Part shown: positions 6,651 through 27,817 of the stretch, piece by piece
How the letters are laid out: each line of letters opens with the position of its first letter
How positions within the stretch are numbered: position 1 is the stretch's first letter
Assembly (NCBI GenBank): GCA_947306495.1
Contig: CAMZGT010000007.1
Span: forward strand, 1-55,916
DNA: 55,916 nucleotides
DNA from: an uncultured Acinetobacter sp.
GTDB lineage: Bacteria; Cyanobacteriota; Vampirovibrionia; Gastranaerophilales; Gastranaerophilaceae
Direction of reading: 5' to 3'
Notes under the pieces: generated by a model
What the model saw: the letters and a program-made list of their open reading frames with translations, nothing else
Told to the model about the DNA's origin: nothing
Database searches by the model: none
Made by a program: the position numbers and the translations under genes

Positions 6651-8813
6651 TTATGCCACACAAAGTGTTTTATTTTGGTTTGGTAATTTACCTAGCGGAG
6701 TTTTGCTTAAATCTGGCATTTTTTTTGATATTTTGTCTAAACTTACCATTCCAGAAAATATCTTTTTGGATTCAGGAAGAACATGAGGTTCTGTATAAGC
6801 TGTTGCTTTTTCAATCTGTGCGATAGTTTCAGGAAAATACCTTTCTAAATATTCTGTTCTAATCGAGAATAAAGACAGATTATTATATGTATTTAGTGCA
6901 GCTCCACCTTCTGCAATTGTTTCTTCTATTGAAGTAACAGGATTTAATTGATTTGTGAAGTAGTTAACATGATTTCGTTGAGCTTCTGGAAAATGCTCTA
7001 AAAACAACTTCAATTCTTTTTGATATGTATCTGAAATTCTATTTCTAACATATTTAGGCAAGTTGAAAATTTTATCTGCATTCCTTACATTTTCAGCTTG
7101 GCTTATGAGATGATATAACTCATGATTTGTTACAAATTGATTACCGCCTGTTGCAATTACTCCAACATCTTGCCCTGCATAACAAGCACAGGAGCCTAAC
7201 AAATCATCAATAACTTTGAAATTTTTGACTTTATCGTTTATATGTAACAAATTTTCACCTGACATTTGTTTCAAAACAGCCATCATTTCCTGCTTTTGTT
7301 CAGGTGTACAGTCTTTAAGTATCTCTGTGAGATTAATATCTGTAACTTTACCATTTTGAGAATTAAGTACAGAAATTTTATCAGTAGAGTAAGTTATTCT
7401 GTAAGTATTGCCATTAACTTTAGATATAGCCTCAGTAGGACTTACAAAAGTGTGTGTTAATTGCCTGTTCATCAAAACATTTCCCTCTACATCTTTAACA
7501 ATGTATGTGAGAGACATATTACCATTCGGTTGAATTGTTATAACTTTATTTGTTGTAGTTCCATTTAAAGACTCCATATTTTTAGTAATTGTTTTAATAC
7601 CTGTTTTGGGGTCAATTTTAGCGTCTCCCAGAACTTTTACAGCTCCGTTAGGTGCTTTTTGTATAATTCTATATACACCTTCAACCTCTGACGGTACCAT
7701 TGTTTCTACAAGTTGCTCACCATTTTTACCTATAAATGACATTTCTTCACTAACTACTTGAGATTTATGCAATACTGCTTGTGTTGGAAGTTTCCTTGAT
7801 TCAACCCAATTAGCTTGTAATGTTACATCAGATTGTAAGTTACCCTTTTTTGATATTCTTTTTAAAGTAACAATGGCATTTTCATCATCTAAGAGGGCTT
7901 GTAATTCTTCTCTATGTGTAATATTTTGTGTACCTGCTCTTGAAACAGACCTTTGACCATTTTTAATACTTTCAATAAATAATTGTTCTTCACTGATGAT
8001 ATTAAAATCTTTATCAAAAGTTTTTAAATATGCTTTGCCGTTATGGTCAGTAATCCCTAACGAGAAGCTGTGCGGATTATAATCATTATGAAGAACATGT
8101 GCACTTTTAAAATTCTTACCATATGCTTTTTTTGCTTTGTTAATTTCCTGAATAAGTTTATCAATATTCAAATCCTTAACTGCTGTTGCTTCCACAATAC
8201 TTTCACCATACAGACCACCGTCAAATATAAGTCTGTTGATTTGTTGTTCATTACACCCATGTTTTGCAAGAGTTACAATTTGTTTATCATTGAAAACCTG
8301 AAATCCTCTATTTTCAATTTGCAAGTATTTTTTTACAAAATCTAATTGCGGTTGTTCCATTTCTGATAATACTTTTAATGTATCAGATTTTACTGCTTGG
8401 AAGTATTCACAATGAGGGTCTTTCATCCTTATAAAGTCTCTTAGCTTTAACAATTTTTCATCTGGCAATTCTTGTAAGAATTTTACAGTTTCAGTATCAT
8501 ATCTTGCTATACTACCAATATCTTTTACTTTTAAACCGTTTCTTGAACACAATTGTTCTAATAATTTCCATTTTTGCTCACCAACTCCACTCATACAACC
8601 CATATCTTCTAACGCAGGTGTATAGTTATGTCTGAAAAATTGTTTAAATCTCGTTGGTTGTTCCATTACAAACATTTTGGCTTCTTCGCCAACATTACGA
8701 ACAGGTCTCAAGTTCTTTATTTCTTGCAAAATGTTCTCTATAGGTCTAGCTTTTAATGCTCTCATAGACGCTGTATGTGGTAATATAAATTTTAAAACTT
8801 TACTTGCAAGCAT
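6651..8813 (-). CDS. Large putative HExxH protein, 720 aa
   Basis: The N-terminal third is helical. The centre (about residues 290-500) is rich in beta-type, threonine- and glycine-containing segments reminiscent of repeated beta-hairpin units. The C-terminal part carries HELYH at residues 564-568, followed by SIEETIAEGGAAL with an ExxA motif. This HExxH...E pattern is expected of a gluzincin metallopeptidase. No signal peptide or convincing transmembrane segment is seen. The gene stands alone between repeat copies 2 and 3 and is preceded by element A at 8836-8874. Function is inferred only from the motif. Confidence 0.6.
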   Translation of the reverse strand: MLASKVLKFILPHTASMRALKARPIENILQEIKNLRPVRNVGEEAKMFVMEQPTRFKQFFRHNYTPALEDMGCMSGVGEQKWKLLEQLCSRNGLKVKDIGSIARYDTETVKFLQELPDEKLLKLRDFIRMKDPHCEYFQAVKSDTLKVLSEMEQPQLDFVKKYLQIENRGFQVFNDKQIVTLAKHGCNEQQINRLIFDGGLYGESIVEATAVKDLNIDKLIQEINKAKKAYGKNFKSAHVLHNDYNPHSFSLGITDHNGKAYLKTFDKDFNIISEEQLFIESIKNGQRSVSRAGTQNITHREELQALLDDENAIVTLKRISKKGNLQSDVTLQANWVESRKLPTQAVLHKSQVVSEEMSFIGKNGEQLVETMVPSEVEGVYRIIQKAPNGAVKVLGDAKIDPKTGIKTITKNMESLNGTTTNKVITIQPNGNMSLTYIVKDVEGNVLMNRQLTHTFVSPTEAISKVNGNTYRITYSTDKISVLNSQNGKVTDINLTEILKDCTPEQKQEMMAVLKQMSGENLLHINDKVKNFKVIDDLLGSCACYAGQDVGVIATGGNQFVTNHELYHLISQAENVRNADKIFNLPKYVRNRISDTYQKELKLFLEHFPEAQRNHVNYFTNQLNPVTSIEETIAEGGAALNTYNNLSLFSIRTEYLERYFPETIAQIEKATAYTEPHVLPESKKIFSGMVSLDKISKKMPDLSKTPLGKLPNQNKTLCVA

Positions 8814-10513: not shown

Positions 10514-10587
10514 GTTGTTACAAAACCGACACAATGCTCGGAAGTGGTGTTCCATTGTTCCACACACAGAGTTATTCTGTGAGTACG

Positions 10588-12327
10588 ATGAATAACGATT
10601 TTTATGTAAATATTAATGACGTGGCAAAAGCAAAAGGGTTAACAAGTAACCGAGCATTAAGGTTAGAAATAAATAAACCTAACAGTAAATATATTGCTCG
10701 GAAAGTAAAAGTCAACGGTGGCGAAACTTACGAGATATTATATTCAACATTAGAGGCTGATGTTCAGGAAATTTTATCGCAGATGTACTCAGGAACGACA
10801 GCACTCGTTCCGGCAAATTGTCAGCCACAAAATTTTGAATCCGAGAGTGCGAAAATGACAGCACTTGCACGATGCGATATTGTTAAAGCTGCTCTAAACT
10901 TCAGGTCAAAATATCGCACTAATAAAGAGGCTGATGCCGTATTTTTAGAATTATTTAATCTCGGACAATATCTTCCTAAATTACATAATTATGTCGGTAA
11001 TATTTCAATCGGAACTCTGCATCGGTGGATTAGTAAATATAAACAAAGTGAATCTGCAGAAGTTTTAGCACCGAATTATAAATATTCTAAAGCAATGGAA
11101 TATAATACAATTCTTGATGACACGATGCAAAAGGTTTTATTATCATTTTTATTGCATCCGCACCGATTAAAACTTGGCAAAGCAATAAAACTTACAAAAG
11201 CATATTTGAAAATAAAATGCGGATATCAAGATTTGCCTTGCGATTTAACCTTCAAAAGATTTGCGGAACATTTCAAAAATACTCACTTTGATTTATGGAC
11301 TTATGCACGAGACGGAAAGAAAGCATACCACGATAATGTGGAAGCATATCTTGAAAGAGATATTTCTAAAATTGAGGTTGGGGATATTTTTGTGGCAGAC
11401 GGACATAAATTAAACTTCCAAGTCTTGGATCCGTTAACAGGAAAACCGGCGAGAGCAACTCTTGTCGGTTTTTTAGATTGGAAGTCTACAGCACTTGTCG
11501 GTTATGAAATAATGATGTCAGAAAATACTCAATGTATTGCATCTGCTTTACGAAACGCAATTATTAATCTTGATTTGATTCCGAAAGTTGTTTACCAAGA
11601 CAATGGCAAAGCCTTTAAGTCGAGGTTCTTCCAAAATTGTGACTTTGAGGAGGAGGGCTTTAACGGAGTTTATGCAAGTTTAGGGATAAAATCAGTTTTT
11701 GCAAAACCGTATAATGCAAGAGCCAAAGTTATTGAGCGGTTTTTCAGAGAATTTCAGGAAGAATTTGAAAAAATGATGATATCTTATTGCGGTTCAAGTA
11801 TTGAAAATAAACCGGCTTGGATGAAACGTGGTGAAAAGTTACACAGAGATTTACACCGCAAAATGACGGAAAATTATATTCCGACAGTTCATGAAATTAT
11901 AAAATATATTGATTGTTGGATTGATTATCATAACTTGAAACCCTGCCCAAACGATAGTCAAATGACAATCAAGGAATGTTTAAATACAGTTCAAAAACAA
12001 GAAATTGATAAAAATATCCTAAATGATTTGATGATGAAAACCGAAGCCAGAACAATAAACAGAGGCGAGATAACATTTTTAGGACTTCATTTCAGAAACG
12101 ATTTTCTGATTGATTTAAGAGAAAAAGTTTTTATCCGCTACTCGCTTTTTGATTTAACAAAAGTGTACGTGTATTCGGTTAAGGGGGAATTTTTATGCAT
12201 CGCCAAACAAGTTGAAAAAGTGCATCCTATGGCAAATCATCTTGGAACAGTTAAAGATATGGAAGAATTTAAGCAGCAAATCCAAAACAAAAACGGCAGT
12301 TTAATAAAGCAAAAAAGGAATTTCTAA
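10588..12327 (+). CDS. Mu-type DDE transposase, C-terminus lost by frameshift
   Basis: Retroviral-integrase-fold transposase with the catalytic triad visible at Asp271 (VADGH), Asp338 (YQDNGKA) and Glu383 (VIERFF). An N-terminal helix-turn-helix-like region (NDVAKAKGLTSNRALRLEI) resembles Mu-type DNA-binding domains. The ATG at 10588 is preferred to 10534 because the N-terminal domain begins there, though neither start has a good ribosome site. The frame ends at 12327, but a -1 frame continues the protein to 12650. Neighbouring genes (ATPase and accessory) match a Mu/Tn552-like transposition module; all carry lesions. Confidence 0.85.
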   Translation: MNNDFYVNINDVAKAKGLTSNRALRLEINKPNSKYIARKVKVNGGETYEILYSTLEADVQEILSQMYSGTTALVPANCQPQNFESESAKMTALARCDIVKAALNFRSKYRTNKEADAVFLELFNLGQYLPKLHNYVGNISIGTLHRWISKYKQSESAEVLAPNYKYSKAMEYNTILDDTMQKVLLSFLLHPHRLKLGKAIKLTKAYLKIKCGYQDLPCDLTFKRFAEHFKNTHFDLWTYARDGKKAYHDNVEAYLERDISKIEVGDIFVADGHKLNFQVLDPLTGKPARATLVGFLDWKSTALVGYEIMMSENTQCIASALRNAIINLDLIPKVVYQDNGKAFKSRFFQNCDFEEEGFNGVYASLGIKSVFAKPYNARAKVIERFFREFQEEFEKMMISYCGSSIENKPAWMKRGEKLHRDLHRKMTENYIPTVHEIIKYIDCWIDYHNLKPCPNDSQMTIKECLNTVQKQEIDKNILNDLMMKTEARTINRGEITFLGLHFRNDFLIDLREKVFIRYSLFDLTKVYVYSVKGEFLCIAKQVEKVHPMANHLGTVKDMEEFKQQIQNKNGSLIKQKRNF

Positions 12328-14585: not shown

Positions 14586-15017
14586 ATGAATATTAATGCG
14601 ATTAATTCGACTATAAAATCTATTCAAAAAATTTCTTTCAAATCAAGCAATAATCAAACAGTTAGTAGTAATCAACTAGTTGCCGACGAATTTGTTTCTG
14701 AACAAAATGCTCCTCAAAAGAAAAAAAAGAAAAAAAACATTTGGACATATGTTGCAATAGGTGCTTTAATATTGGCTCTTGTTGCCGACATAGCTGTTGA
14801 ACATAAAATACGAGTTGAAGAAAAAGCAAAAAAAGAAGCTATACAAAAAGAAAAAGAACTTGCTGAAAAGCTAAAAAAAGAAGCAGAAGAAAAAGCTAAA
14901 AAACTCGAAGAAGAAATAAAAAAACAAAAAGAAGCTCTTGAAAAGGCAAAAAAAAATGGAAAGTCCAGTGGGGATTCAGATATACCAGATATTAATATTG
15001 AACAGCCAAAATCATAA
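14586..15017 (+). CDS. TM plus coiled-coil protein with N-terminal ISFK motif, 143 aa
   Basis: The N-terminus has ISFK at residues 16-19, then a lysine run (44-50), one transmembrane helix (about 52-71) and a highly charged coiled coil (about 76-130) built from K, E and A heptads. AAAGGAAA provides the ribosome site. The TM and coiled-coil layout closely resembles residues 48-118 of the 822-residue double AAA+ protein encoded convergently, so the two could pair at the membrane; this is an inference. No catalytic motif is visible. Confidence 0.7.
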   Translation: MNINAINSTIKSIQKISFKSSNNQTVSSNQLVADEFVSEQNAPQKKKKKKNIWTYVAIGALILALVADIAVEHKIRVEEKAKKEAIQKEKELAEKLKKEAEEKAKKLEEEIKKQKEALEKAKKNGKSSGDSDIPDINIEQPKS

Positions 15018-15065: not shown

Positions 15066-16421
15066 TTAAATATGTTTAATGTATTCTATTTGTCGTCTAA
15101 ATTTTTGTATTTGTTCCGGTTTGATATCAGCAATCAAATCTTTAATCTGTTCCGGTGTCTTAAAAGATTTTATAAATGATTTCAACATATTGACACTATA
15201 TGCACCACCATTTTTTGCCTTTTCTATTAATTCAGACAATGATGTTAAGTTAATACTATCAATCAATTCTAATGGCAAATATCTTTTTATAATAGACAAT
15301 ATGTCATTTTCAGCCATTGCGGGAATTGCTATTTTGGATTCAAAACGACCACTTCTTAATAATATATCGTCCAATAATTCCGGCGTTTCGGTTGTTGCTA
15401 TTATAGTTGCGTGAGAATCTTTTGATACATTATCGAGAAAACTTTTAAGCGGTCCAATCATGCGTGAACCTTTTGGTGCAAATTCTTCAAATTTATTTAT
15501 AATAATTAATGTTCTACCGTAACCTTCTTCAAAAGTTTTCTTTGCTTTTATACTTGCTTCTTTTACCCTATTAAAACGTTCTGCTTCACTGCCGTTGGAT
15601 GTTAAAATTATTGATTTAGTATTAAATTGTCTAGCGATTGCATTTGCAAAATCACTATTGTTATTAACATCAGGACCATATAATAGAATTCCATTTGGAA
15701 CATCAATTGTTTTACCATTTTTTTCTAAGACTAATAATTGGCCTATTGCCGCAATTATAGCTTTTTTGACATCTGTAAATCCCGAAATTTTACCAAAACC
15801 GTTTGGTTTAGGAGCATTAATTTCTTTCATTATAGAGTCCGGTTTTTTGATAGAATTGTTAATATTATCAGCTATAACCGATAACTTACTTTTAAATTCA
15901 GTTTTTACAGTTTCAATCTTTTTTTCCGCGTCTTGTCTTAGTGATTTTTGGAATTCTTTATTTTGAGTTTTTAAATTTTCTGTTTCCGCTTTTAAACTAT
16001 CTATATTTGACTCTTGTTGAGATAAGGTACTGCGAGCGGAAGAATTTGCACTTGATAACTGCCCGCCCTGTGAACCTAAATAACTTAGAGTTCTATTTAT
16101 TCCCGGTATTACAGTTCTTTCATTATAGTTTATCTGACTTTGAATTCTTGATAAACGTGACCTTTTAGATGATAAAATGCTTGAATGATTACTTTTTGCA
16201 TCTCTCTCTGCACTTTCCCTATATCGTAATTGAGTTTCTTTTTGTGCGATTTGCCTTTCCAAATCATTAATTTCACTTCTCATGCGTCTTTCAATAATTT
16301 CTTCAGCATTCCAATAATCTGAACTAAAAAAACTACTACGATCTTCTAAATCACGCACCCTTTCGTAATAACCTTTAAATGATTGAGAATTATTTATACA
16401 ATTTATTTTGTTTATTAACAT
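15066..16421 (-). CDS. AAA+ pseudo-ATPase retaining the arginine finger, 451 aa
   Basis: Begins with the regional motif (QSFKG, residues 13-17), followed by about 170 residues of coiled coil and then a FtsH/Cdc48-like AAA+ module (GFGKISGFTDVKKAI). The Walker A site is destroyed: residues 249-256 read GPDVNNNS instead of GPKGNGKS. Walker B reads LIIINKFEEF, lacking the Asp-Glu pair, and sensor 1 is ATTE rather than ATTN. Yet the arginine-finger segment LLRSGRF is intact. It should neither bind nor hydrolyse ATP normally but could complete a neighbour's active site. Last gene of the operon, 11 bases after the 356-residue gene. Confidence 0.8.
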   Translation of the reverse strand: MLINKINCINNSQSFKGYYERVRDLEDRSSFFSSDYWNAEEIIERRMRSEINDLERQIAQKETQLRYRESAERDAKSNHSSILSSKRSRLSRIQSQINYNERTVIPGINRTLSYLGSQGGQLSSANSSARSTLSQQESNIDSLKAETENLKTQNKEFQKSLRQDAEKKIETVKTEFKSKLSVIADNINNSIKKPDSIMKEINAPKPNGFGKISGFTDVKKAIIAAIGQLLVLEKNGKTIDVPNGILLYGPDVNNNSDFANAIARQFNTKSIILTSNGSEAERFNRVKEASIKAKKTFEEGYGRTLIIINKFEEFAPKGSRMIGPLKSFLDNVSKDSHATIIATTETPELLDDILLRSGRFESKIAIPAMAENDILSIIKRYLPLELIDSINLTSLSELIEKAKNGGAYSVNMLKSFIKSFKTPEQIKDLIADIKPEQIQKFRRQIEYIKHI

Positions 16422-16432
16422 ATATTAAACCT

Positions 16433-17503
16433 CTATTTTCTAACTATTTTTGATAATAAATTTTCACCGGTATATTGATGTTTAGAAACAAATTCTACTA
16501 AACTATCTTTACCGAGTTTTTTATCTGTTAAAAAGTTCTTTTCAACTGTTACTACATCTGAAAATTTGATTTTTGGGGATAGTTCTAAATAAGGAATTTT
16601 AGATATTACAACTATTATGTTGTGATACATTTTTTCTGCATTCAAAAATAATTCTTTTATACTTTCATTATCTTTTAGTGATGATATTATATTTTCAAAC
16701 CCTGAAATTAGTGTAAATGTTCTCTTTCCGGTTTCTTCATAATTTCTTGAAGCTAAAAAAGATATTTTTTTAAGTAATGAAAAAACTTCTTGTTTATCTG
16801 AATATTCTGCTGTATTAATTTTTGCATAGTTAGAATCGGTTTGTTTTACTAACCATGAAAAAAGAGGTTCGGCTACATCATATGAATTTTTAATATAAAT
16901 ACTTGAAGGAAGATCCTCTTCTTTACCTTCTACAGAATCAATTATTGGGTTAATAACTTTTTGTATCAATGACGATTTTACACCCTTTTGCATTTCTTCT
17001 GCATTTGTTTTGAATTCATTTTCTATCTGTTCAGATTTTGTTTTAAATTCTTCTGCTAGTGCATTTTGTAGTGTTTTATTGGATTCTTGCAACTGTTTAA
17101 CCGTATTTTGTTTTTCTGTTTCTAAGCTTTTAATTGTGCCTAAATTTCTTTTAGCTTTTTGCTGTAGCCTATATCCTTCACTTGAAAGACTATCAATATA
17201 AGATTCTTTACTATCTGCTCTATCACGTAATTTACTAATACGTCTTTCTGTTTCATCCAACCTACTTTCAGCACTATCTATTTGTGAATCCAGTGATGAA
17301 GATTCCCATTCAAAGTCTCTGTTTTCACTCCATATACGTTCGTCAACATTTCGTATATCTGATTCTACAGTGGCAAGCCTTGATTGCTTGTTATACATTT
17401 CATCATCTAAGTAATGTCCAAAAGTAATATTGTTTTGCTTTGGGTATTTAGTTAAATTAGAAATATGATTATATCTATAATTATTTACTGGAATTATTTT
17501 CAT
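16433..17503 (-). CDS. Degenerate AAA+ protein with coiled coil, 356 aa
   Basis: The N-terminus carries ITFG at residues 26-29; residues about 35-190 are coiled coil. The C-terminal region aligns by eye with the AAA+ modules next door (NYEETGKRTFTLISGFENI against HYEKTGKETIIQIDEVEGF), but Walker A, Walker B, sensor 1 and the arginine finger are all lost. The C-terminal lid is also shortened. It is best described as a structural paralogue. AGGAAGG lies before the ATG; spacing to both neighbours is 11 bases. Confidence 0.7.
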   Translation of the reverse strand: MKIIPVNNYRYNHISNLTKYPKQNNITFGHYLDDEMYNKQSRLATVESDIRNVDERIWSENRDFEWESSSLDSQIDSAESRLDETERRISKLRDRADSKESYIDSLSSEGYRLQQKAKRNLGTIKSLETEKQNTVKQLQESNKTLQNALAEEFKTKSEQIENEFKTNAEEMQKGVKSSLIQKVINPIIDSVEGKEEDLPSSIYIKNSYDVAEPLFSWLVKQTDSNYAKINTAEYSDKQEVFSLLKKISFLASRNYEETGKRTFTLISGFENIISSLKDNESIKELFLNAEKMYHNIIVVISKIPYLELSPKIKFSDVVTVEKNFLTDKKLGKDSLVEFVSKHQYTGENLLSKIVRK

Positions 17504-17514
17504 TACACACCTTC

Positions 17515-19002
17515 CTATATCTTTCTCATATATATAATTTGGTCTGCAAACTTTTCTAATGCTTGTTTTGAAATATCAGCACCAAATTCTTTGATTTTAC
17601 CCAACAATTCAGTATGACTGAATGTTTTTTTACCTTTTTCAGTAATTTCAGAAATAAGTCCTTTTATTATAGTTTCAATTTTTGCATTGCTGTATGCTTC
17701 ATTTGGTTGAACACTTACAAGTTCTTCTGCAATTTTTTCATAATTAACTGTTGCATCTGCGAATTTTTCTGCATAATGTTTAACTATATCTGTCGTATTT
17801 GATTTATTTGCTGGTGCCAGCGGTACTTTTACACTGAAACGACCATTTCTTAATAATATGTCATCAATGTTTTCAGGGAAATTGGTTGTAGCAAAAATAG
17901 TAGCATGATATTTTTGTGATACATCATCCATAAATGATTTGAGAGGTGCAACTATTCTTGAATTTTTTGGTGCAAAATCATCAAATTCTTCTATTCTTAT
18001 AATAGTTCTAGTTCCGTCTTTTTCAAAATTTTCTTGTGCTTTCTTTGCAGCTTCTTTAAGATTTCTTAAATTAGTTGCTTCATCAATATCTAATTCTATC
18101 TTTACATTATGACACCCAAGCTGTTCTGCAAATGCTCTAGCAAATAAAGATTTTCCATTTCCTTTTGGACCGTAGAATAAAATCCCATTAGGAATCTCTG
18201 TAGGTTGTCCGCTTTTTTCTGATATAATTGAGTTTCCTATTTGAGTAATTAATACGTCTTTTTCTTTTTGATAACCGCCAACTTTACCAAAACCTTTTCC
18301 GGCATTTGTTTCGTGCATTTTTCTAAACATTTCATCCATGTGCTTAGTTTTTTCGGCTTCTTCTGCTTTTATTTTATATTTTTGCTCAAATTCTTTTCTT
18401 AACTCATCTTTCATTCGGTTGAGTTCTTCTTCCATACTTTTATTATTAGTATTTTTAGCTTCAATCAGTTGTTTTATTAATTCTTGTGTTGTTCTTTCAG
18501 ATTCAGACCTCATTGCTTGCATTTCTTTCATAATATTTGCAAAGCTTGATATTTGTTCACTTATCATTCTAGTAGTCTGCTGTGAGGATTCATACATTTC
18601 CCTCTGCCATTGTATATGCCCTCTTTGAGCATCTTCCAGTGCTGCTATTCTAGCAGTGTCTTGTTGTCTTAATTGTTCAATTTTAGTTGCAAATGCCATT
18701 TGATCCGCAACACGTTTTTTAGTTTCTTCATTAATTGTTTTTTGCACAAGCAATTCCTTATCTCTTGCCAAATCTTCCTTTTCTACTTCTCTTTCAGCAG
18801 AAGTTCTGGCTTTTGATTTCCCACCTAACAAGTTTCTTTCTACCCAACTCATATCTTTAGTTTTTTCTTTTACTTTTTCTTCAATACGTCTTTCATGTTC
18901 TGATATACCAAACGTAATTTGACTCCTTTTGACAGGATAAGAGTGGTTGGTTGTTGTTCTTGTTTGGTTAACAGTTACAGAGGTGATTGGGCTAATTCTC
19001 AT
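17515..19002 (-). CDS. AAA+ ATPase with coiled coil and intact arginine finger, 495 aa
   Basis: The ATG at 19002 is chosen because AAAGGAAA precedes it; a TTG 18 bases upstream also lies in frame. ITF at residues 29-31 is the regional motif. A long coiled coil (about 40-235) precedes one AAA+ module with Walker A GPKGNGKS (278-285), a variant Walker B IIRIEEFDDF (Glu for Asp), sensor 1 ATTN and the arginine finger LLRNGRF. Of the six modules in the operon, it is the only one with both an ATP site and a finger. The C-terminus (ADISKQALEKFADQI) matches the tail of the paralogues. Confidence 0.85.
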   Translation of the reverse strand: MRISPITSVTVNQTRTTTNHSYPVKRSQITFGISEHERRIEEKVKEKTKDMSWVERNLLGGKSKARTSAEREVEKEDLARDKELLVQKTINEETKKRVADQMAFATKIEQLRQQDTARIAALEDAQRGHIQWQREMYESSQQTTRMISEQISSFANIMKEMQAMRSESERTTQELIKQLIEAKNTNNKSMEEELNRMKDELRKEFEQKYKIKAEEAEKTKHMDEMFRKMHETNAGKGFGKVGGYQKEKDVLITQIGNSIISEKSGQPTEIPNGILFYGPKGNGKSLFARAFAEQLGCHNVKIELDIDEATNLRNLKEAAKKAQENFEKDGTRTIIRIEEFDDFAPKNSRIVAPLKSFMDDVSQKYHATIFATTNFPENIDDILLRNGRFSVKVPLAPANKSNTTDIVKHYAEKFADATVNYEKIAEELVSVQPNEAYSNAKIETIIKGLISEITEKGKKTFSHTELLGKIKEFGADISKQALEKFADQIIYMRKI

Positions 19003-19023
19003 TTCTTTATTTCCTTTCAATTA

Positions 19024-21492
19024 TTAAAATATATTCTTATATTCGCTTAGTGTTGATTTTGATATATCTGGTGTAAAGTTTTTATCGATTATCAAATTAA
19101 TAATGTTTTGTTCTGTAATTTTACTGAAAGTTGCTTTCTTATTTTGCTTAATTTTTTGAGTAAGAGCGTTATCTACTCTTGATGTAACAAAATCATGCAT
19201 TTTATCATATATTCTAGCATTACTAAAAGCATTCTCGCCGGCTTTAGATATAATCATTTGAGCCAATTTATCATAATTTATTGTTGATTCAGAAAAATCT
19301 TTTAATACAAATTTCATGATTTCGGCAATATCTTCTTTCCCTGCCGGAGAAATTAGCATTTTTTCAAATTTGGAAGTATTTATAATATTTTTATTAATCC
19401 TTTGCGGATGATTTGTTGTTGCAAACAACACAGCGTGATATTTATTAGATAAATCATTAATAATATTTTGATATTCTTTTATTGTTTCCGAACTTCCTAC
19501 AAAAATTCCGTCAATTTCATCAGCTTGGATAATTGTTATTTTTCCTGTTTTTTCATAATACTGTTTTGCTTTATCAGCAGCTTCTTTAAATGCTTTCAAA
19601 TCTTCTAATTCATCTAATGAACTATTCAAAGATATCTGATTACAACCGGATTCTTCTATTGCTGCTTTGATAAATAAAGTTTTACCAGTACCTTTAGGTC
19701 CATACATTAATATTGTATTTGGTAAAGGTTGATTGTTTCTCAGTGGTTGCAAAAATTTATCAGATATAAATTTCTTTTGTTCTGTATAACCTTGAATACG
19801 AGCAAAACTTCTAATATTATTTAATTGTGCAAGTAAATTTTTAGTTGCATTTAATTCTATAATTTCTTGCGATTCTCTTGTCGTGCGTTCAAGTTCATCC
19901 ATTCGAGAATTAAAACCTTCTTGCCATTGTAATAATTCTTCAATGCTATCTTGTTCGCCTGTTGCATTTATGCGACCTCTGCCATTAATAGAAAATTCTG
20001 AAAAACTTTCAAGTGTTTCTTTTTTTATATCGGGTACAAAGTCTTTTTGCATAATAGCATTTCTAATATCTTGTTGTGTTAATTGCTTTATGCTAGAACT
20101 TTGTTGTTGTTTTATTTTTGCATTTAAAGCATCGTTTGCACTTTTTGCGGCTAAATCTCGTGCCATATTATAGACTCTTGCATTACTATATGCATCTTTT
20201 CCGGCTCTATTAATTATTAAATCTGCCAATTCATTATAATTAACAGTTGATTCAGAAAAATCTTTGAGTACAAATTTTAAAATTTCTTCAATATCTTTTT
20301 TATTCGCTTGTGGTATAAGCATTTTTTCAAGTTTTACAGTTTGGAGAATCTGATTGTCAATTTCTTGCGGGTGGTTTGTTGTTGCAAATATTGTTGCGTG
20401 ATATTTATCAGAAGCGGTATTTATTAAATCAGAAAATTCCTTAATAGAACTATTACTTCCGGCAAAAAATCCTTCCACCTCATCTATCTGAATAATAGTT
20501 TCTTTTCCTGTCTTTTCGTAATGTTGTTTTGATTTTTTTAATGCTTCGCTAAAAGCAGCAATATCTTCTTTTTCATTTAAAGAACTTATTAACGATATTC
20601 TGTTACATCCAGTTTCATCTACAACTGCTGTGACAAAAGATGTTTTACCAGTGCCTTTAGGACCATACATTAATATTGTATTTGGTATAGATTTTTTATT
20701 GTTTTTTAAAGGCAATATAAATTTTTTAGTTAAAAAATCTTTTTGAGTTTCATACCCCCTTATTCTGTCAAAACTTTTTGTTGCATCAATTTGTGCAAGT
20801 CTTGCAGATGTTGAAAGAACTTCCCTTGTTTCTTTCGTATCAACAATTTGTTGCTCAAGTTGGTCTAAACGTTCATTATAACCCCTGTTCCAATTTTCTA
20901 ACTCTTGAATAGTTTCATCAGCAGAACTACTATTTGGCTTTCCTGTTGGTTTTGATGTTCCAACTATAGGTTTTGTTTTGCCGGCTCTATCAGTGTTAGA
21001 ACTTGTTCCACCACCACCTCCTGAATGATTGGTTCTGCCTGACCCACCGCCACCAGTGCTGCCATTTCCACGATTACTACCGGAAGAATGACCGCTATTA
21101 CTTGTGTGACCGGTTGGCTTAGTTGTATTTGTGCCAAGGATTTTATTATTTATTTCATCTAATTGTTTTGATAATGCATCATTTTCTTCTTTTAACTGTT
21201 TTAATTTGGCTTCCGCTTCTTGTTTCAACTTCTCCGCTGCTTCTTTTTCCGCCTGTGCAAGTTTTTTATCTACACTTGATTTATGACCTCTAAGTAATGC
21301 CCATCCGGTACCCAATAATGCTAAAAATCCTGCCGCCCAACCTAAAGTATGGTCACCATTTCCCGCATGTTCAGCGGCTGTTGTTAATAATTCATCGGAA
21401 GCCCCCGCTTTAAACATTGGTTTCAAAAAATTCATTTTTGAATTAAATGTAACTTTTCTATAGTTTTGATTTTCGACAGGCTCAATTCGCAT
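19024..21492 (-). CDS. Double AAA+ ATPase with TM segment and Ser/Gly linker, 822 aa
   Basis: Order: regional motif VTFN (14-17), a probable TM helix (about 48-66), a short coiled coil (73-118), a low-complexity Ser/Gly/Thr linker (about 120-185), then two AAA+ modules. Walker A is GPKGTGKT in both (277-284 and 598-605). Walker B is IIQIDEVEGF and IIQADEIDGI, and sensor 1 is ATTN in both. The arginine-finger region is replaced (ILQTVKLEK and IINTSKFEK; Lys for the second Arg). The modules are more alike each other than to the 495-residue protein, pointing to internal duplication. The tail DISKSTLSEYKNIF is shared with the 591-residue protein. Confidence 0.85.
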   Translation of the reverse strand: MRIEPVENQNYRKVTFNSKMNFLKPMFKAGASDELLTTAAEHAGNGDHTLGWAAGFLALLGTGWALLRGHKSSVDKKLAQAEKEAAEKLKQEAEAKLKQLKEENDALSKQLDEINNKILGTNTTKPTGHTSNSGHSSGSNRGNGSTGGGGSGRTNHSGGGGGTSSNTDRAGKTKPIVGTSKPTGKPNSSSADETIQELENWNRGYNERLDQLEQQIVDTKETREVLSTSARLAQIDATKSFDRIRGYETQKDFLTKKFILPLKNNKKSIPNTILMYGPKGTGKTSFVTAVVDETGCNRISLISSLNEKEDIAAFSEALKKSKQHYEKTGKETIIQIDEVEGFFAGSNSSIKEFSDLINTASDKYHATIFATTNHPQEIDNQILQTVKLEKMLIPQANKKDIEEILKFVLKDFSESTVNYNELADLIINRAGKDAYSNARVYNMARDLAAKSANDALNAKIKQQQSSSIKQLTQQDIRNAIMQKDFVPDIKKETLESFSEFSINGRGRINATGEQDSIEELLQWQEGFNSRMDELERTTRESQEIIELNATKNLLAQLNNIRSFARIQGYTEQKKFISDKFLQPLRNNQPLPNTILMYGPKGTGKTLFIKAAIEESGCNQISLNSSLDELEDLKAFKEAADKAKQYYEKTGKITIIQADEIDGIFVGSSETIKEYQNIINDLSNKYHAVLFATTNHPQRINKNIINTSKFEKMLISPAGKEDIAEIMKFVLKDFSESTINYDKLAQMIISKAGENAFSNARIYDKMHDFVTSRVDNALTQKIKQNKKATFSKITEQNIINLIIDKNFTPDISKSTLSEYKNIF

Positions 21493-21507
21493 ATTGTTTC
21501 CTTTCTT

Positions 21508-23283
21508 TTATTTATATTCTTTAATATTTGTTTTTGATATATCAGGTTCTAATTTTAAAATAATATCTTCTATATATTCTTGATTTATTTTTTTATTTGT
21601 ATCAGCAAGAGTTTCTTTTATTCCATTGACAATACCCTCTGCGATTTGTGCATTGCTATATAAATCTTTTCCGATTTTTACTTGAATTATGTCGTAAAGT
21701 TGTCTGTAATCAATATCAGAATCTGCAAAGTCTTCAAGGTAATACTTTAAAACCTCCTGAATATTAGTTTTGTTCGGAGGCTCTATATAAATTTTCTCAT
21801 TCTTATTTTTAGGAATAACATTTTGATTTAATTTGTTTGGATAATTTGTTGTAGCAACTATTGTACAATAATTATCTGATAATGAATTTACTATATTTTG
21901 AAGTTCCTTTGGTTTGTATGTTTCATCTGAAATAAAACCGTCGAGTTCATCAATATGAATAATAGAATATATACCTTCTTTATTATATTTGTTTTTTGCG
22001 GTATCAATAGCTTTTTCTAAATTTTGAAAATCTTGTTTATTGTCCAAAGTAAGTTCAATATTTATAACATTGCACTTTGTTTCATCAGCAATAGCTTTAC
22101 TAAACAATGTTTTTCCGCAACCTTTTGGACCGTATAACAAAATCATATTTGGCAACTCTACAGTTTTTCCGGCATTAAATTTTTGAACAGGCAACAGAAA
22201 TTTATTTTTCAATAGTTGTTTAATATTATCATATCCCGCAATGCGGTTAAAACCGGTTTGCGATGTTCTCTTATACAGTATTTCGTTAAATTTTATAATT
22301 TTATCAGCAAGTTCTATTGTTGCATTTATATCACTGCATTCTTCCTCATAATATTTTTGAGAAAAATCTTTAATATCTTGCATAATCTTAAATTCTTCAC
22401 TGTCTTTAGACATAGAATTCATTGTTTCTTTAATTTCGTTCATGCAACTACTGTAATTACTAAATAAATTTTGTTGTAATGTCTTTAGTGACTGTAATTT
22501 GCCTATTAACTCAGCATTAGAATCAACATAACTTCTTGCACCCTGTTGGCACATTTGTTGAATAGCAGTTTCTCTGGCAATCATTTGGTCTAGTTGTTCA
22601 TGTGAATTTTGTAGCATTTGTATTCTTGTTTGTCCCCAAGTGTCAATTGCGACTTTGTTTTTTTCACTTGAAATCAGTATCTGATCTACATTTTTTTGTA
22701 GCCATTCTTCACGTGCTTTGTTATATTCCTCGTATGCCATTTTTTCCGGATCATTTACCAAATCCTTCCAAAACTGTTTAGGACTAATAACCGCTTTCTC
22801 TACGTTTCTACGATTTTTACCCCAGTGTCTCATTGCATAGAAATAGCCTTTTACAAAACCGGCATCCGGTGTATCAGAACCACGCATTTTTACAATAAGT
22901 CCTCTAATTGCACCTAAACCGCCATAAACCATTCTTATTTTTAGTGCAGCGACATCAACAACATTTACGGCAGTTCTTTTTATTGCCGCTGAAAAATTAC
23001 CCTTTTTTAAATCTTTTATTGGCTCAACAAGTCTTGTTAGTAATGATAAACCATAAATTCCGTCCGTAACACCGGCTAAAGTATCGCTTAAAACAGCACT
23101 ATGCTCTAATGTTGAAGTGTGTTCAAGCAAAGATGTTGCACCTGTGAATGTATCTTGAACAGGTGCGTGTTCTATGACAGTTGCCAAATTTGTTGGCAAA
23201 GAAACTGAACTTAATACATCAAGTTCTGACTTGGGTATATGTTTTAAACTTCCATATAGTTGTTCTATGTGTGGGACTTTCAT
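21508..23283 (-). CDS. AAA+ ATPase lacking the arginine finger, 591 aa
   Basis: First gene of the AAA+ operon. The N-terminal half has no regional motif; it contains hydrophobic stretches (about 70-165) and then helical, coiled-coil-prone sequence. One AAA+ module follows with Walker A GPKGCGKT (385-392), Walker B IIHIDELDGF (Asp445-Glu446) and sensor 1 ATTN. The finger segment reads VIPKNKNEK instead of LLRxGRF. ATP binding is likely; hydrolysis would need a finger from another subunit. The tail (EPDISKTNIKEYK) matches that of the 822-residue protein. A good promoter lies about 75 bases upstream. Confidence 0.83.
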   Translation of the reverse strand: MKVPHIEQLYGSLKHIPKSELDVLSSVSLPTNLATVIEHAPVQDTFTGATSLLEHTSTLEHSAVLSDTLAGVTDGIYGLSLLTRLVEPIKDLKKGNFSAAIKRTAVNVVDVAALKIRMVYGGLGAIRGLIVKMRGSDTPDAGFVKGYFYAMRHWGKNRRNVEKAVISPKQFWKDLVNDPEKMAYEEYNKAREEWLQKNVDQILISSEKNKVAIDTWGQTRIQMLQNSHEQLDQMIARETAIQQMCQQGARSYVDSNAELIGKLQSLKTLQQNLFSNYSSCMNEIKETMNSMSKDSEEFKIMQDIKDFSQKYYEEECSDINATIELADKIIKFNEILYKRTSQTGFNRIAGYDNIKQLLKNKFLLPVQKFNAGKTVELPNMILLYGPKGCGKTLFSKAIADETKCNVINIELTLDNKQDFQNLEKAIDTAKNKYNKEGIYSIIHIDELDGFISDETYKPKELQNIVNSLSDNYCTIVATTNYPNKLNQNVIPKNKNEKIYIEPPNKTNIQEVLKYYLEDFADSDIDYRQLYDIIQVKIGKDLYSNAQIAEGIVNGIKETLADTNKKINQEYIEDIILKLEPDISKTNIKEYK

Positions 23284-23452: not shown

Positions 23453-24217
23453 TTACACATTGAGAATTTTTTTTATAATTTCTATAAATTCCTTTGGATA
23501 TTCTCGAAACTTGTCTAGTGGGTTTTCTTTAGGTAAAATATCTGTTGCAGATAATGAATCGCAAATTGATTTTGTAAAAGTATCAGCAAAAATCTCATGA
23601 TATTGATTTAATGGATTTGTTGCATATTCTCCCAATAAATTACCAACAATTTCATTTTCTCGCTCGTTTAAAGTTTTTCCTTCTAAACCTTTTAGAATAT
23701 CAAATGACATAGACCCATATTTTTCATAAATTTTATTCAAATAAATTGCGTGCATCATTTCATGAATAATATCCGATAAAAAATGATTAGTATTTTTTAA
23801 TCCTTGTTTTTTTGCTTGTTCTGCTTGAAAATCAAGTTCCTCTATACTTGGAATATTTGAATAAAAAATTGCAGCGGGTTTAAATTCAGGCTCATTTATC
23901 AATACTTTTTTATTTTCCGGAATACAAAAATGATACAAGTTAGAATCTAATAAGAGTTTATCTTTTGAATATACATTTATACTTGGAGATCTGAATTTAA
24001 ACATATTAAATGCACTGTTTAAGTAATTAAGTATATTTACCGCCATGTTTGCAGATAGTGCCATCGCTCTATTATTTTGAAAGTTTGAAACTATTCCTTG
24101 TGTACTTAAAAATTTTTCAGCATTTTTGCAGTCAAATGTGTGTTGTAACTGAACAACACCCTTATTAAGTCCGGCTTTAAAAGATAAATTTGGTTGATTT
24201 TGTTGAATTGAAAGCAT
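23453..24217 (-). CDS. Putative HExxH metallopeptidase with LSFK motif, 254 aa
   Basis: ATG at 24217 is preferred to a TTG at 24253; it puts LSFK at residues 11-14 as in the other motif proteins. HEMMH lies at residues 152-156 in a typical helix (LSDIIHEMMHAIYL). YHEIFADTFTKS downstream has the ExxA pattern expected of the third zinc ligand. No signal peptide. It lies about 170 bases upstream of the AAA+ operon on the same strand, so a functional link as the proteolytic partner of the AAA+ proteins is possible but unproven. Confidence 0.68.
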   Translation of the reverse strand: MLSIQQNQPNLSFKAGLNKGVVQLQHTFDCKNAEKFLSTQGIVSNFQNNRAMALSANMAVNILNYLNSAFNMFKFRSPSINVYSKDKLLLDSNLYHFCIPENKKVLINEPEFKPAAIFYSNIPSIEELDFQAEQAKKQGLKNTNHFLSDIIHEMMHAIYLNKIYEKYGSMSFDILKGLEGKTLNERENEIVGNLLGEYATNPLNQYHEIFADTFTKSICDSLSATDILPKENPLDKFREYPKEFIEIIKKILNV

Positions 24218-24278
24218 AAATAATCTAGATTTTCTTTGAAAAAATTCTATCAAAATTTTTTATTTAATGCAATCTATT

Positions 24279-25630: not shown

Positions 25631-27817
25631 ATGAAAGCAGTAAAAGATAAAACAAACTTGTGGGTGGATATAGAAAAGGCAGCTGAGGTACTAGGTTTAA
25701 GTGAGCAAACCATTAAAAAACAATGCAGAAAAGGTGAATACGTTTTTAAAATAGTAAAAAAGGGGAAACGTGCAAACTATTTCATTATGTTTAAATCAAT
25801 GCCGCAATTCGCTCAGGATAAATATCTTGGAGATACATTATTGGATATTAAGTATTCAGAAGTTCCATCTTGGGCAAAGCAGCAAGCAGAAAAATATGTT
25901 CGGATTCTGGATGCTTCCGCAGGGCTTAAAGGCAAAGCTCTGGAAGAATTTGTCGAAAATTGGAATAATGACGAGAACGAAGAATACACGACATCGTATC
26001 CTTCATTAATAAAAATGCGCAGAAGATATTTCAGATATGGTGTTGCAGGATTATTATCAAAGCACGGTCAGCATTTGATAGGCTCCTCCGTTCCTGATAA
26101 ATATTTTGAGTATTTTAAAAATCTGTATTTAGTGGAAGGTGCACCGTCTCTCAGAACCTGTTGGGATTTAACTTTAGGTTATGCCCTAAGAGAAGATGAT
26201 GTTGACAGAGACAAGTTCCCAAGTTTTATGGCTTTTAAACGAAGGCTGGATAAGGATATTCCGAAACAAAGTATTTATCTTGCAAGATATGGTCAATCCG
26301 CTTGGAACAGAAAATACGGAAATTATATTGAAAGAGATTATTCAAATATAACCTGCAATCAGGTTTGTGTGTCTGATCACGCACAAATAGATGTTGCTTG
26401 TTATGACTCCAATAATAAACCGATTTTTCCGTGGGTTACTGTTTGGCGGGATTATAAATCAGGGAAATGGCTCGGTTGGATTTTACAAACAGGAAACCCA
26501 AACTCAGATTTAATTTTTCAATCTTTTTATGATGCAGCTCAAGAATATGGTTTACCCAAAGATGTAATTATTGATAACGGTAAAGATTATCGTTCAAAAG
26601 ATTTTGCAGGAGGAAGAAAGAGTTTTAAAGTAATATCAAATGAAAATAAAACATCGGCGATGTTAAAAGAACTGAATATTAATGTTCATTTCGCACTTCC
26701 TTATAACGCACAAACAAAACCTGTCGAAAGAGATTTTCTAAAAATCAAAGAATTGTTATCCAAACATTGTGTCGGATATCGTGGCGGAAATGTTGTTGAA
26801 AGACCTAAAAAACTGGCAAAAGAAATCAAAGACGGCAAGATTATGAAGTTTGAAGATTTTAAGAAAATTTTTTATGATTTTATTGTTAATATTTTGAATA
26901 AAAAACCATCGCAGGGTAAAAATCTTCAGGGCAAGTGTCCGGACGAATTATTTTATGAAGAATTTAAGGAAAAAATTGTAGCTTCTAAAGATGCATTAAA
27001 ACTGTTTTGTATGCGAACTTCAAAGGATTATACAGTTCGCAGAAACGGTATTAAAGACAGTGCTCTCGGTATTACATACTGGAATGATTGGATGATTAAT
27101 GAAACAGGCTTGCGGGTTTATTTAAGAAGAGATATTAAAAATTATAAAGAAGCTTGGGCATTCAGATCCGACAATGATGAATTTGTCGGAATAGTTACCG
27201 TTTCCGATTCTATCGCAGCATTGCATGCTGATAAAATTTCAAAAGATGAATTTAAAGAAGCTATGGCAAGAAAAAGACGCAACTTAAAAACTGCTATGGC
27301 ATATATTAAACAAACAGAATCAATATCATTTTCCGAGAAATATGAAAATTACCAAGCTGTATATAAAAGTTTGGAAAGAGATTACAAAAAAGAAGTTAAA
27401 GTTTCAAAAATTGCAGATACAAATATAGATAAAGCTATAAAAAAGAAAAAAGAAATGGACGAATACAAGAACATGGATATGTCAGCATTCTTAAGATTGG
27501 AAGAAGCTGCAGAAAGGTATAGAAAGCCAAAACGTAAAATATATTTATGGGAAACTGACAAAAAGTTGGATGAAGAACGAATGAGGGAAGAAGCTGCAAA
27601 TATGCAGACACAAGAAGATGACGAACCATTTTATTTTTACGAAACGGATAGAAGATTAGCGGAAGAAGAACGGAAATATAGAGAAGAACAAGCAAAAGCA
27701 GATAAAAAAGAAAAAACTTCCACTAAAATAATAAATAACATGATAGATAAAGAATTTGATTATTTGTATGAAACAGACAGAATTCTTGCAGAAGAAGCAA
27801 ACGTCAGTATAGGATAA
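25631..27817 (+). CDS. Mu-type DDE transposase with C-terminal ETDR repeats, 728 aa
   Basis: An N-terminal helix-turn-helix (VDIEKAAEVLGLSEQTIKKQ) is followed by the integrase-fold catalytic core. Likely catalytic residues are Asp249 (VSDHAQ), Asp315 (IIDNGKD) and Glu366 (KPVERDF). The last 90 residues contain three copies of a short motif, YLWETDKKLDEE, YFYETDRRLAEE and YLYETDRILAEE, at about residues 638, 668 and 711. This end probably contacts a partner such as a MuB-type ATPase, but no such gene follows. The gene is intact, unlike the transposon at 10.6-14.3 kb. Confidence 0.85.
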   Translation: MKAVKDKTNLWVDIEKAAEVLGLSEQTIKKQCRKGEYVFKIVKKGKRANYFIMFKSMPQFAQDKYLGDTLLDIKYSEVPSWAKQQAEKYVRILDASAGLKGKALEEFVENWNNDENEEYTTSYPSLIKMRRRYFRYGVAGLLSKHGQHLIGSSVPDKYFEYFKNLYLVEGAPSLRTCWDLTLGYALREDDVDRDKFPSFMAFKRRLDKDIPKQSIYLARYGQSAWNRKYGNYIERDYSNITCNQVCVSDHAQIDVACYDSNNKPIFPWVTVWRDYKSGKWLGWILQTGNPNSDLIFQSFYDAAQEYGLPKDVIIDNGKDYRSKDFAGGRKSFKVISNENKTSAMLKELNINVHFALPYNAQTKPVERDFLKIKELLSKHCVGYRGGNVVERPKKLAKEIKDGKIMKFEDFKKIFYDFIVNILNKKPSQGKNLQGKCPDELFYEEFKEKIVASKDALKLFCMRTSKDYTVRRNGIKDSALGITYWNDWMINETGLRVYLRRDIKNYKEAWAFRSDNDEFVGIVTVSDSIAALHADKISKDEFKEAMARKRRNLKTAMAYIKQTESISFSEKYENYQAVYKSLERDYKKEVKVSKIADTNIDKAIKKKKEMDEYKNMDMSAFLRLEEAAERYRKPKRKIYLWETDKKLDEERMREEAANMQTQEDDEPFYFYETDRRLAEEERKYREEQAKADKKEKTSTKIINNMIDKEFDYLYETDRILAEEANVSIG

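Follow-up and report, generated by a model that had tools for sequence, protein, structure and literature searches.

In this study, the AAA+ proteins encoded by a five-gene operon were investigated in a 55,916-nucleotide stretch of DNA (hereafter the window; positions 1 to 55,916 of contig CAMZGT010000007.1, assembly GCA_947306495.1), which belongs to a 1.65 Mb genome deposited under an uncultured Acinetobacter sp. and placed by GTDB in the Gastranaerophilaceae (Cyanobacteriota; Vampirovibrionia; Gastranaerophilales). The proteins are referred to by their lengths in amino acids: 591, 822, 495, 356 and 451. We observed that the ATP-binding motifs and the arginine finger are largely carried by different proteins of the operon, and that this division recurs in related clusters throughout the bacterial family. 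It is therefore likely that the operon encodes an obligate hetero-oligomer, an AAA machine whose ATP-binding sites and trans-acting fingers would reside on different proteins.

Active-site motifs of the window proteins

The five genes lie on the minus strand and are transcribed in the order 591, 822, 495, 356 and 451, with intergenic gaps of 11-21 nt. The 591 protein and both modules of the 822 protein (822a and 822b) display Walker A (GPKGxGKT), Walker B (ending in DE) and the sensor-1 ATTN, and lack both arginines of box VII. Listed as Walker A, Walker B, sensor 1 and box VII, their motifs read GPKGCGKT, IIHIDE, ATTN and NVIPKNKNEK in the 591 protein; GPKGTGKT, IIQIDE, ATTN and QILQTVKLEK in 822a; and GPKGTGKT, IIQADE, ATTN and NIINTSKFEK in 822b. 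The 451 protein is the reverse, with GPDVNNNS, IIINKFEE (NK within Walker B), ATTE and an intact ILLRSGRF. Both sets of motifs are found in the 495 protein (GPKGNGKS, IIRIEE, ATTN and ILLRNGRF), where the first Walker B Asp is replaced by Glu, and in the 356 protein Walker A, Walker B and the arginine of the second region of homology are all absent. On alignment to solved Cdc48/p97, the LLR/GRF segments of the 495 and 451 proteins fall on the canonical finger pair LRRFGRF / LLRAGRF, and the 591 protein has Pro and Lys at the two finger positions. The motifs thus agree with the first-pass annotation of this DNA, which had assigned ATP sites and fingers to these six modules in the same way, and the alignment upholds the finger positions on which that assignment depended.

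The same annotation described the missing finger as replaced by a Lys-containing segment. This is true of the window, where all three finger-less modules have Lys at the second Arg position, but the Lys is not conserved in the 591 orthologs, whose finger-position segments are SEKF, SVNI, GTKT and GTNI. Lys as a conserved substitute finger was rejected on this ground, and because most finger-less ATPases at large lack it.

In the Pfam scan, the 591, 495 and 451 proteins scored above the gathering score of PF00004 (Pfam AAA), as did the 822 protein twice, and no match to PF00004 was found for the 356 protein. Nonetheless, profile-profile comparison joins the 356 subfamily to the other modules (probability 99.7%, E 5.8e-26), and its predicted model, with a mean predicted local distance difference test score (pLDDT) of 77, matches Vps4 and p97 (Foldseek E 1.5e-5). 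As judged from profile and model, the 356 protein is still of AAA+ fold.

Orthologous clusters and selection

The same five-gene order was found in four other genomes, namely G034, G045 (the L001 record), G021 and, from another genus, G321. The division of motifs is identical subunit by subunit in all five orthologous clusters of these two genera; the arginine of the 356 type is missing in 5/5, and two of the five 495-type proteins (G021 and G321) have Asp for the Walker B Glu. The counterpart of the 822 protein is a single module in all four relatives, and modules 822a and 822b pair as sisters in the tree (support 0.96), so the sixth module is a tandem duplication specific to the window. The earlier count of six modules hence holds for the window only, the other four clusters having five, and six modules making one hexamer was rejected as a general rule.

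Between G034 and G045, the ratio of non-synonymous to synonymous substitution (dN/dS, NG86 method) was 0.16 for the 356, 0.14 for the 451, 0.15 for the 591, 0.20 for the 518 and 0.07 for the 495 protein, all rough values with dS (1.0-2.2) near saturation; in more distant pairs with G021, it reaches 0.59. On these rough values, the pseudo-subunits 356 and 451 are under purifying selection and about as constrained as two of the three ATPases. Neutral evolution of the pseudo-ATPases, which would have spoken for decay, was not seen in this pair, where dN/dS is well below 1.

Additionally, the cluster genes of locus L025 (G021, same genus as the window) pair with those of L036 (G321, the other genus) and not with those of the window's genus-mates, and the flanking genes vary between genomes. 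From this pairing and the differing flanks, the AAA cluster appears to move horizontally.

Distribution and complementarity across the family

With a search profile built from 24 modules, relatives were detected in 135 of the 383 genomes and 22 of the 41 genera of the same family. A phylum-wide scan of 386 genomes gave matches inside that family with a single exception, which belongs to another family of the order, and a search of viral contigs with the ATPase profile gave weak matches only (21-50% identity, with the query partly covered). About 70 cluster regions were taken in, and their modules were located with two profiles and aligned, leaving 122 non-redundant modules at <60% identity; the 346-amino-acid module of L036 was counted as finger-less after inspection of a misaligned stretch.

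Among these 122 modules, 48 are ATP-competent without a finger arginine, 11 are ATP-competent with one, 57 are ATP-incompetent with one and six have neither. The arginine is thus absent from 48/59 ATP-competent modules and kept in 57/63 ATP-incompetent ones, an anti-association with a Fisher p of ~1e-17 in which relatedness is not removed beyond the 60% identity filter. The pseudo-modules keep this arginine at 92%, and among their 165 columns its information content is the second highest, with the Walker A Lys and sensor-1 Asn columns at ranks 151 and 99. A pseudo-module profile cut before box VII recovered 83 of 85 pseudo-open reading frames and three extra ones, QPHRTAK being found at this place in two of the three; since the truncated profile finds nearly the same set, the search itself did not favour modules with the arginine.

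A finger-bearing neighbour accompanies the finger-less ATPase in 55 of 60 clusters. Frequent compositions are a single ATPase accompanied by one donor (17 clusters), by two (14), or by one plus a finger-bearing ATPase (14). Same-strand neighbour pairs across the clusters are spaced by <=50 nt in 71/96 cases and overlap in 16.

Evolutionary history of the finger

In the module tree, for which branch supports are those of FastTree and deep nodes are weak, most pseudo-AAA modules fall in one clade (support 0.92). The 451-type forms a separate group (1.00), standing beside the finger-bearing 495-type ATPases (0.82), and finger-only subunits consequently arose at least twice. With a finger-bearing root, the finger state of the ATPases changes about seven times on the tree, or six when weak nodes are collapsed.

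Two closely related cases, which serve as an illustration and not as a statistic, concern solitary finger-less ATPases on long contigs with no donor detected nearby: L066 in G396 (6747-7856) and L068 in G214 (6993-7967). Unlike their sisters with partners, both have lost the sensor-1 Asn (MTSS for TTN). If a donor is required, the site left behind after loss of the partner is expected to decay, which agrees with what is found in these two.

Fold of the donor subunits

At L002, a finger-less ATPase of 425 amino acids is accompanied by two donors of 596 and 433 amino acids. The donor domain of the 596-amino-acid protein was modelled by AlphaFold2 with a mean pLDDT of 90.9 as an AAA large subdomain. 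It aligns with p97 D1 (204-370) over 156 residues, with Z 16.9 and a root-mean-square deviation of 2.9, residue 172 lying on p97 370. Counting back from there, and assuming an ungapped ending, Arg164 of the model (HRVGLKFDLS) would fall on p97 Arg362, a canonical finger in p97 numbering. No lid follows in 20 of 55 non-redundant donors of that type, which end <=30 residues after box VII; none of the ATPases does so. The pore-loop-1 segment is shortened, with neither the FVG of FtsH nor a conserved aromatic-hydrophobic-Gly motif, and classical threading is therefore doubtful, by a crude motif test which two of three reference AAA proteins fail too. LAP1 and LULL1 were not among the top VIA-align/Foldseek matches, from which no conclusion is drawn.

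Proposed mechanism and alternatives

We infer ring formation, subunit order, stoichiometry and donor-dependent ATPase activity from the sequences. The finger-less ATPases (591, 822a and 822b) would be inefficient at ATP hydrolysis as homomers, and would be switched on when a finger donor, either the nucleotide-free 451 or the 495 protein that also binds ATP, is set against their nucleotide pocket. The 356 pseudo-AAA protein would complete the ring or fill an interface and activate no subunit, such that the machine should run only as a mixed assembly. In one possible order, 451 and 495 would each stand beside a finger-less ATPase, with 356 facing a site that needs no hydrolysis. The output is a guess: the machine may remodel a target that is membrane-associated or proteolytic, and the neighbouring HExxH protein perhaps takes part.

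Several observations weigh against this proposal. The window has four live sites (591, 822a, 822b and 495) and two donors (495 and 451), so at most two sites would be completed if each protein is present once. Some sites of the predicted complex would stay incomplete unless its stoichiometry is uneven, and the predicted interface map of the window is under-determined. Five clusters have a finger-less ATPase and no finger-bearing neighbour; among them, one comes from a contig of 4 kb, the pseudo-module of L093 lacks the Arg, and L095 has only another AAA type beside it. Moreover, 11 of the 59 non-redundant ATPases retain their own finger and could work alone. Finally, the second Arg position of the 48 finger-less ATPases is occupied by Ile in 12, Lys in 10, a gap in eight and Val in eight, and the Lys, which is the residue of all three window modules, might retain weak function.

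The alternative that survives best is a switch of the clamp-loader or origin recognition complex type, where finger-less sites bind ATP to assemble an open pentamer, one or two finger-completed sites hydrolyse, and most subunits are structural. For the five-module clusters it has to be taken seriously: those of G034, G045, G021 and G321 have three ATP-competent modules, one finger-only module and one with neither, the FVG pore loop is absent, and delta and delta' of the clamp loader are likewise without ATPase activity (PMC3331839). Against it, about 33 clusters with one ATPase and one to three pseudo-AAA proteins misfit a fixed pentamer of distinct subunits, and matches to the NCBIfam families dnaX and holB reach 20-30 bits, far under the cut-offs of 180-250. 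Overall, we consider it unlikely.

Paralogue decay would make the mix of motifs an accident of loss after duplication, with no compensating design. Motif loss is common in duplicated AAA genes, the 356 protein has nothing recognisable left, and the 822 tandem is a local duplication; but a dN/dS of about 0.15 for 356 and 451, intact frames with the same assignment in five species, a near-complete functional division over about 70 clusters, and an arginine retained in otherwise lost active sites all contradict it. Decay is already largely refuted and very improbable. The same assignment in the five clusters, the low dN/dS, the anti-association over 122 modules and the repeated changes of finger state support the first-pass proposal of complementary specialisation. 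Equally improbable is that the role of the arginine is taken in 591 and 822 by Lys or some other basic residue, so that all sites are complete and no complementation is needed, as the Lys, present in the three window modules, is absent from the four 591-type orthologs and most finger-less ATPases and leaves the retained arginine of the pseudo-ATPases unexplained.

The HExxH neighbour and other peptidase-like genes

A 266-amino-acid protein with an HExxH motif is encoded next to the operon (Table 1). The motif is invariant in 13 aligned homologs, and the protein had no named-family match in the Pfam, NCBIfam and phrog comparisons. In 14 genomes, a member of this family is encoded no more than about 4 kb from an AAA cluster, often as the sole copy of the genome, with homologs at L023, L024, L025 (two), L028, L036, L067, L078, L050, L072, L065, L060, L062 and L051. 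The gene is missing from several other genera with clusters, and is present in some genomes without one. A ring with a separate metallopeptidase-like partner is suggestive, by analogy, of a split FtsH-like device.

Other gene arrangements were also noticed. A 474-amino-acid protein, M16-type peptidase-like by eye, precedes the AAA genes in G042 and G050, at L028 (5037-6461) and L027 (10854-12278), with a further copy at L028 12774-14237. At L026 (8071-10782), a 903-amino-acid protein with apparent ankyrin repeats (by eye) fused to two Cdc48-like AAA modules is convergent to a smaller AAA/pseudo-AAA cluster.

Gene content of the region

The features of the operon and its neighbours are collected in Table 1. 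The length of the 495 protein differs from the 501 amino acids of the open reading frame caller, which starts at an upstream TTG. The closest named relatives of the window are 'Candidatus Gastranaerophilales bacterium' (L001, 60% identity over the 495 protein) and Candidatus Scatousia (L002). Small open reading frames occur in G034, G045 and G021 at a position similar to that of the 143-amino-acid protein, but align poorly.

Table 1. Positions in the window of the AAA operon, its active-site motifs and the adjoining genes
Feature	Position	Strand	Evidence or remark
591-aa AAA ATPase, ATP-competent, finger-less	21508..23283	-	Pfam AAA E 4.4e-15; orthologs: ATP motifs present, both arginines absent
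591-aa motifs	Walker A 22108-22131; Walker B 21946-21966; sensor 1 21844-21855; box VII NVIPKNKNEK 21793-21822	-	
822-aa protein, two AAA modules, each ATP-competent and finger-less	19024..21492	-	Pfam AAA E 5.4e-29
822-aa module a	20026-20775; box VII QILQTVKLEK 20323-20352	-	
822-aa module b	19027-19809; box VII NIINTSKFEK 19360-19389	-	
495-aa AAA ATPase, ATP motifs and LLRNGRF finger	17515..19002	-	Pfam AAA E 3.6e-18; alignment to p97 D1 including LRRFGRF
495-aa motifs	Walker A 18148-18171; Walker B IIRIEE 17986-18006; finger 17836-17859	-	
356-aa coiled-coil and predicted pseudo-AAA protein, no ATP motifs or finger	16433..17503; AAA fold ~16436-16981	-	Profile-profile match, model
451-aa coiled-coil and pseudo-AAA protein, ATP-incompetent, LLRSGRF finger intact	15066..16421	-	Pfam AAA E 3.4e-9
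451-aa motifs	degenerate Walker A GPDVNNNS 15654-15677; Walker B 15492-15512; finger 15342-15365	-	
266-aa zincin-like protein	23453..24253; HEMMH 23750-23764	-	HExxH invariant in homologs; conserved cluster neighbour
143-aa short membrane/coiled-coil protein adjoining the cluster	14586..15017	+	Membership in the system uncertain

Genes for Mu-type transposases (phrog_310) stand on both sides of the AAA operon and its neighbours, at 10534-12327 (E 1.5e-91) and 25631-27817 (E 1.6e-82). A short motif, [STN]F[KG], follows a short leader (e.g. ITFGHY, SFKGYY) at the N-termini of the window open reading frames at 15066-23283 and of many at L023-L095. It occurs at residues 5-35 in 13% of open reading frames and further in at 3-4%, and the form [STN]F[KGQ] is found within the first 50 residues of 88/183 AAA-cluster frames and 87/628 others. 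Possibly, it acts as a lineage-specific sorting or binding motif.

Significance and comparison with known systems

The main known examples of pseudo-ATPases that donate a finger and thereby switch on a finger-less AAA+ protein are the two cofactors of torsin. The dozens of diverged bacterial examples described in this study, whose finger state changed several times independently and whose partners are encoded in the operon, would offer a natural experiment on the evolution of split active sites and a genetically simple system for how pseudo-ATPases gate AAA rings, and 'degenerate' AAA genes in Gastranaerophilales genomes should not be dismissed as decayed. The principle itself has precedents, and what seems to be new is the family, its host range, its mixed composition and its repeated evolution; no literature on such AAA proteins in Gastranaerophilales/Melainabacteria was found in a search that left most subscription papers and preprints outside its scope and does not prove priority, and a search for a prokaryotic torsin-like system gave the McrBC structure only. 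A wider proposition, tentative and rather doubtful as a whole, is that the Gastranaerophilales independently evolved and repeatedly elaborated split-site AAA engines like torsin-LAP1, coupled to a dedicated HExxH protein as a donor-gated protease or remodelling machine.

In sequence and fold, the closest relatives are Cdc48/p97 and Vps4/CdvC. The A2 profile matches a VCP-like ATPase with E 5.8e-46, CDC48 and CdvC are among the top NCBIfam matches (under cut-off), and the best sequence relatives are Cdc48/VCP, Afg2 and Vps4. The match to the Cdc48/p97 family TIGR01243 reaches 47-80 bits against a cut-off of 802.65. The window proteins differ from Cdc48/p97 in that no p97 N-domain was recognised, each chain other than 822 has one module, active sites are degenerate and the pore-loop-1 region is shortened. 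With FtsH and the chloroplast FtsHi/Ycf2 hetero-motors, they share AAA subunits of divided or lost activities, in hetero-rings there, and an accompanying HExxH gene; the HExxH protein here is separate, however, and the window AAA proteins have no M41 domain in Pfam or NCBIfam.

Clamp-loader ATPases keep their own finger, unlike the finger-less ATPases here. The bacterial clamp loader (gamma/tau, delta and delta'; PMC3331839) resembles our system in its mixed AAA+ ring, which here is presumed, its subunits without ATP sites and its trans fingers; the homology is limited to AAA+, and the composition here ranges from 1+1 to six modules.

The closest parallel is torsinA with LAP1/LULL1 of the eukaryotic nuclear envelope and endoplasmic reticulum. 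The AAA+ fold of LAP1 is atypical and devoid of nucleotide motifs; the residue at its finger position, Arg563, stimulates torsin (PMC4358337). Here too, most ATPases (48/59), including 591 and both 822 modules, are finger-less, their partners lack nucleotide motifs and largely conserve the finger-position arginine (57/63), and many donors also stop right after box VII. The differences are that the present proteins are bacterial, of the classical Cdc48/Vps4 type and outside the torsin (ClpB-D2-like) clade, that a single family and a single operon include both donor and ATPase, and that the complex clusters have five to six modules of mixed states. With no claim of membership, we propose by analogy that the window system works like torsin-LAP1/LULL1.

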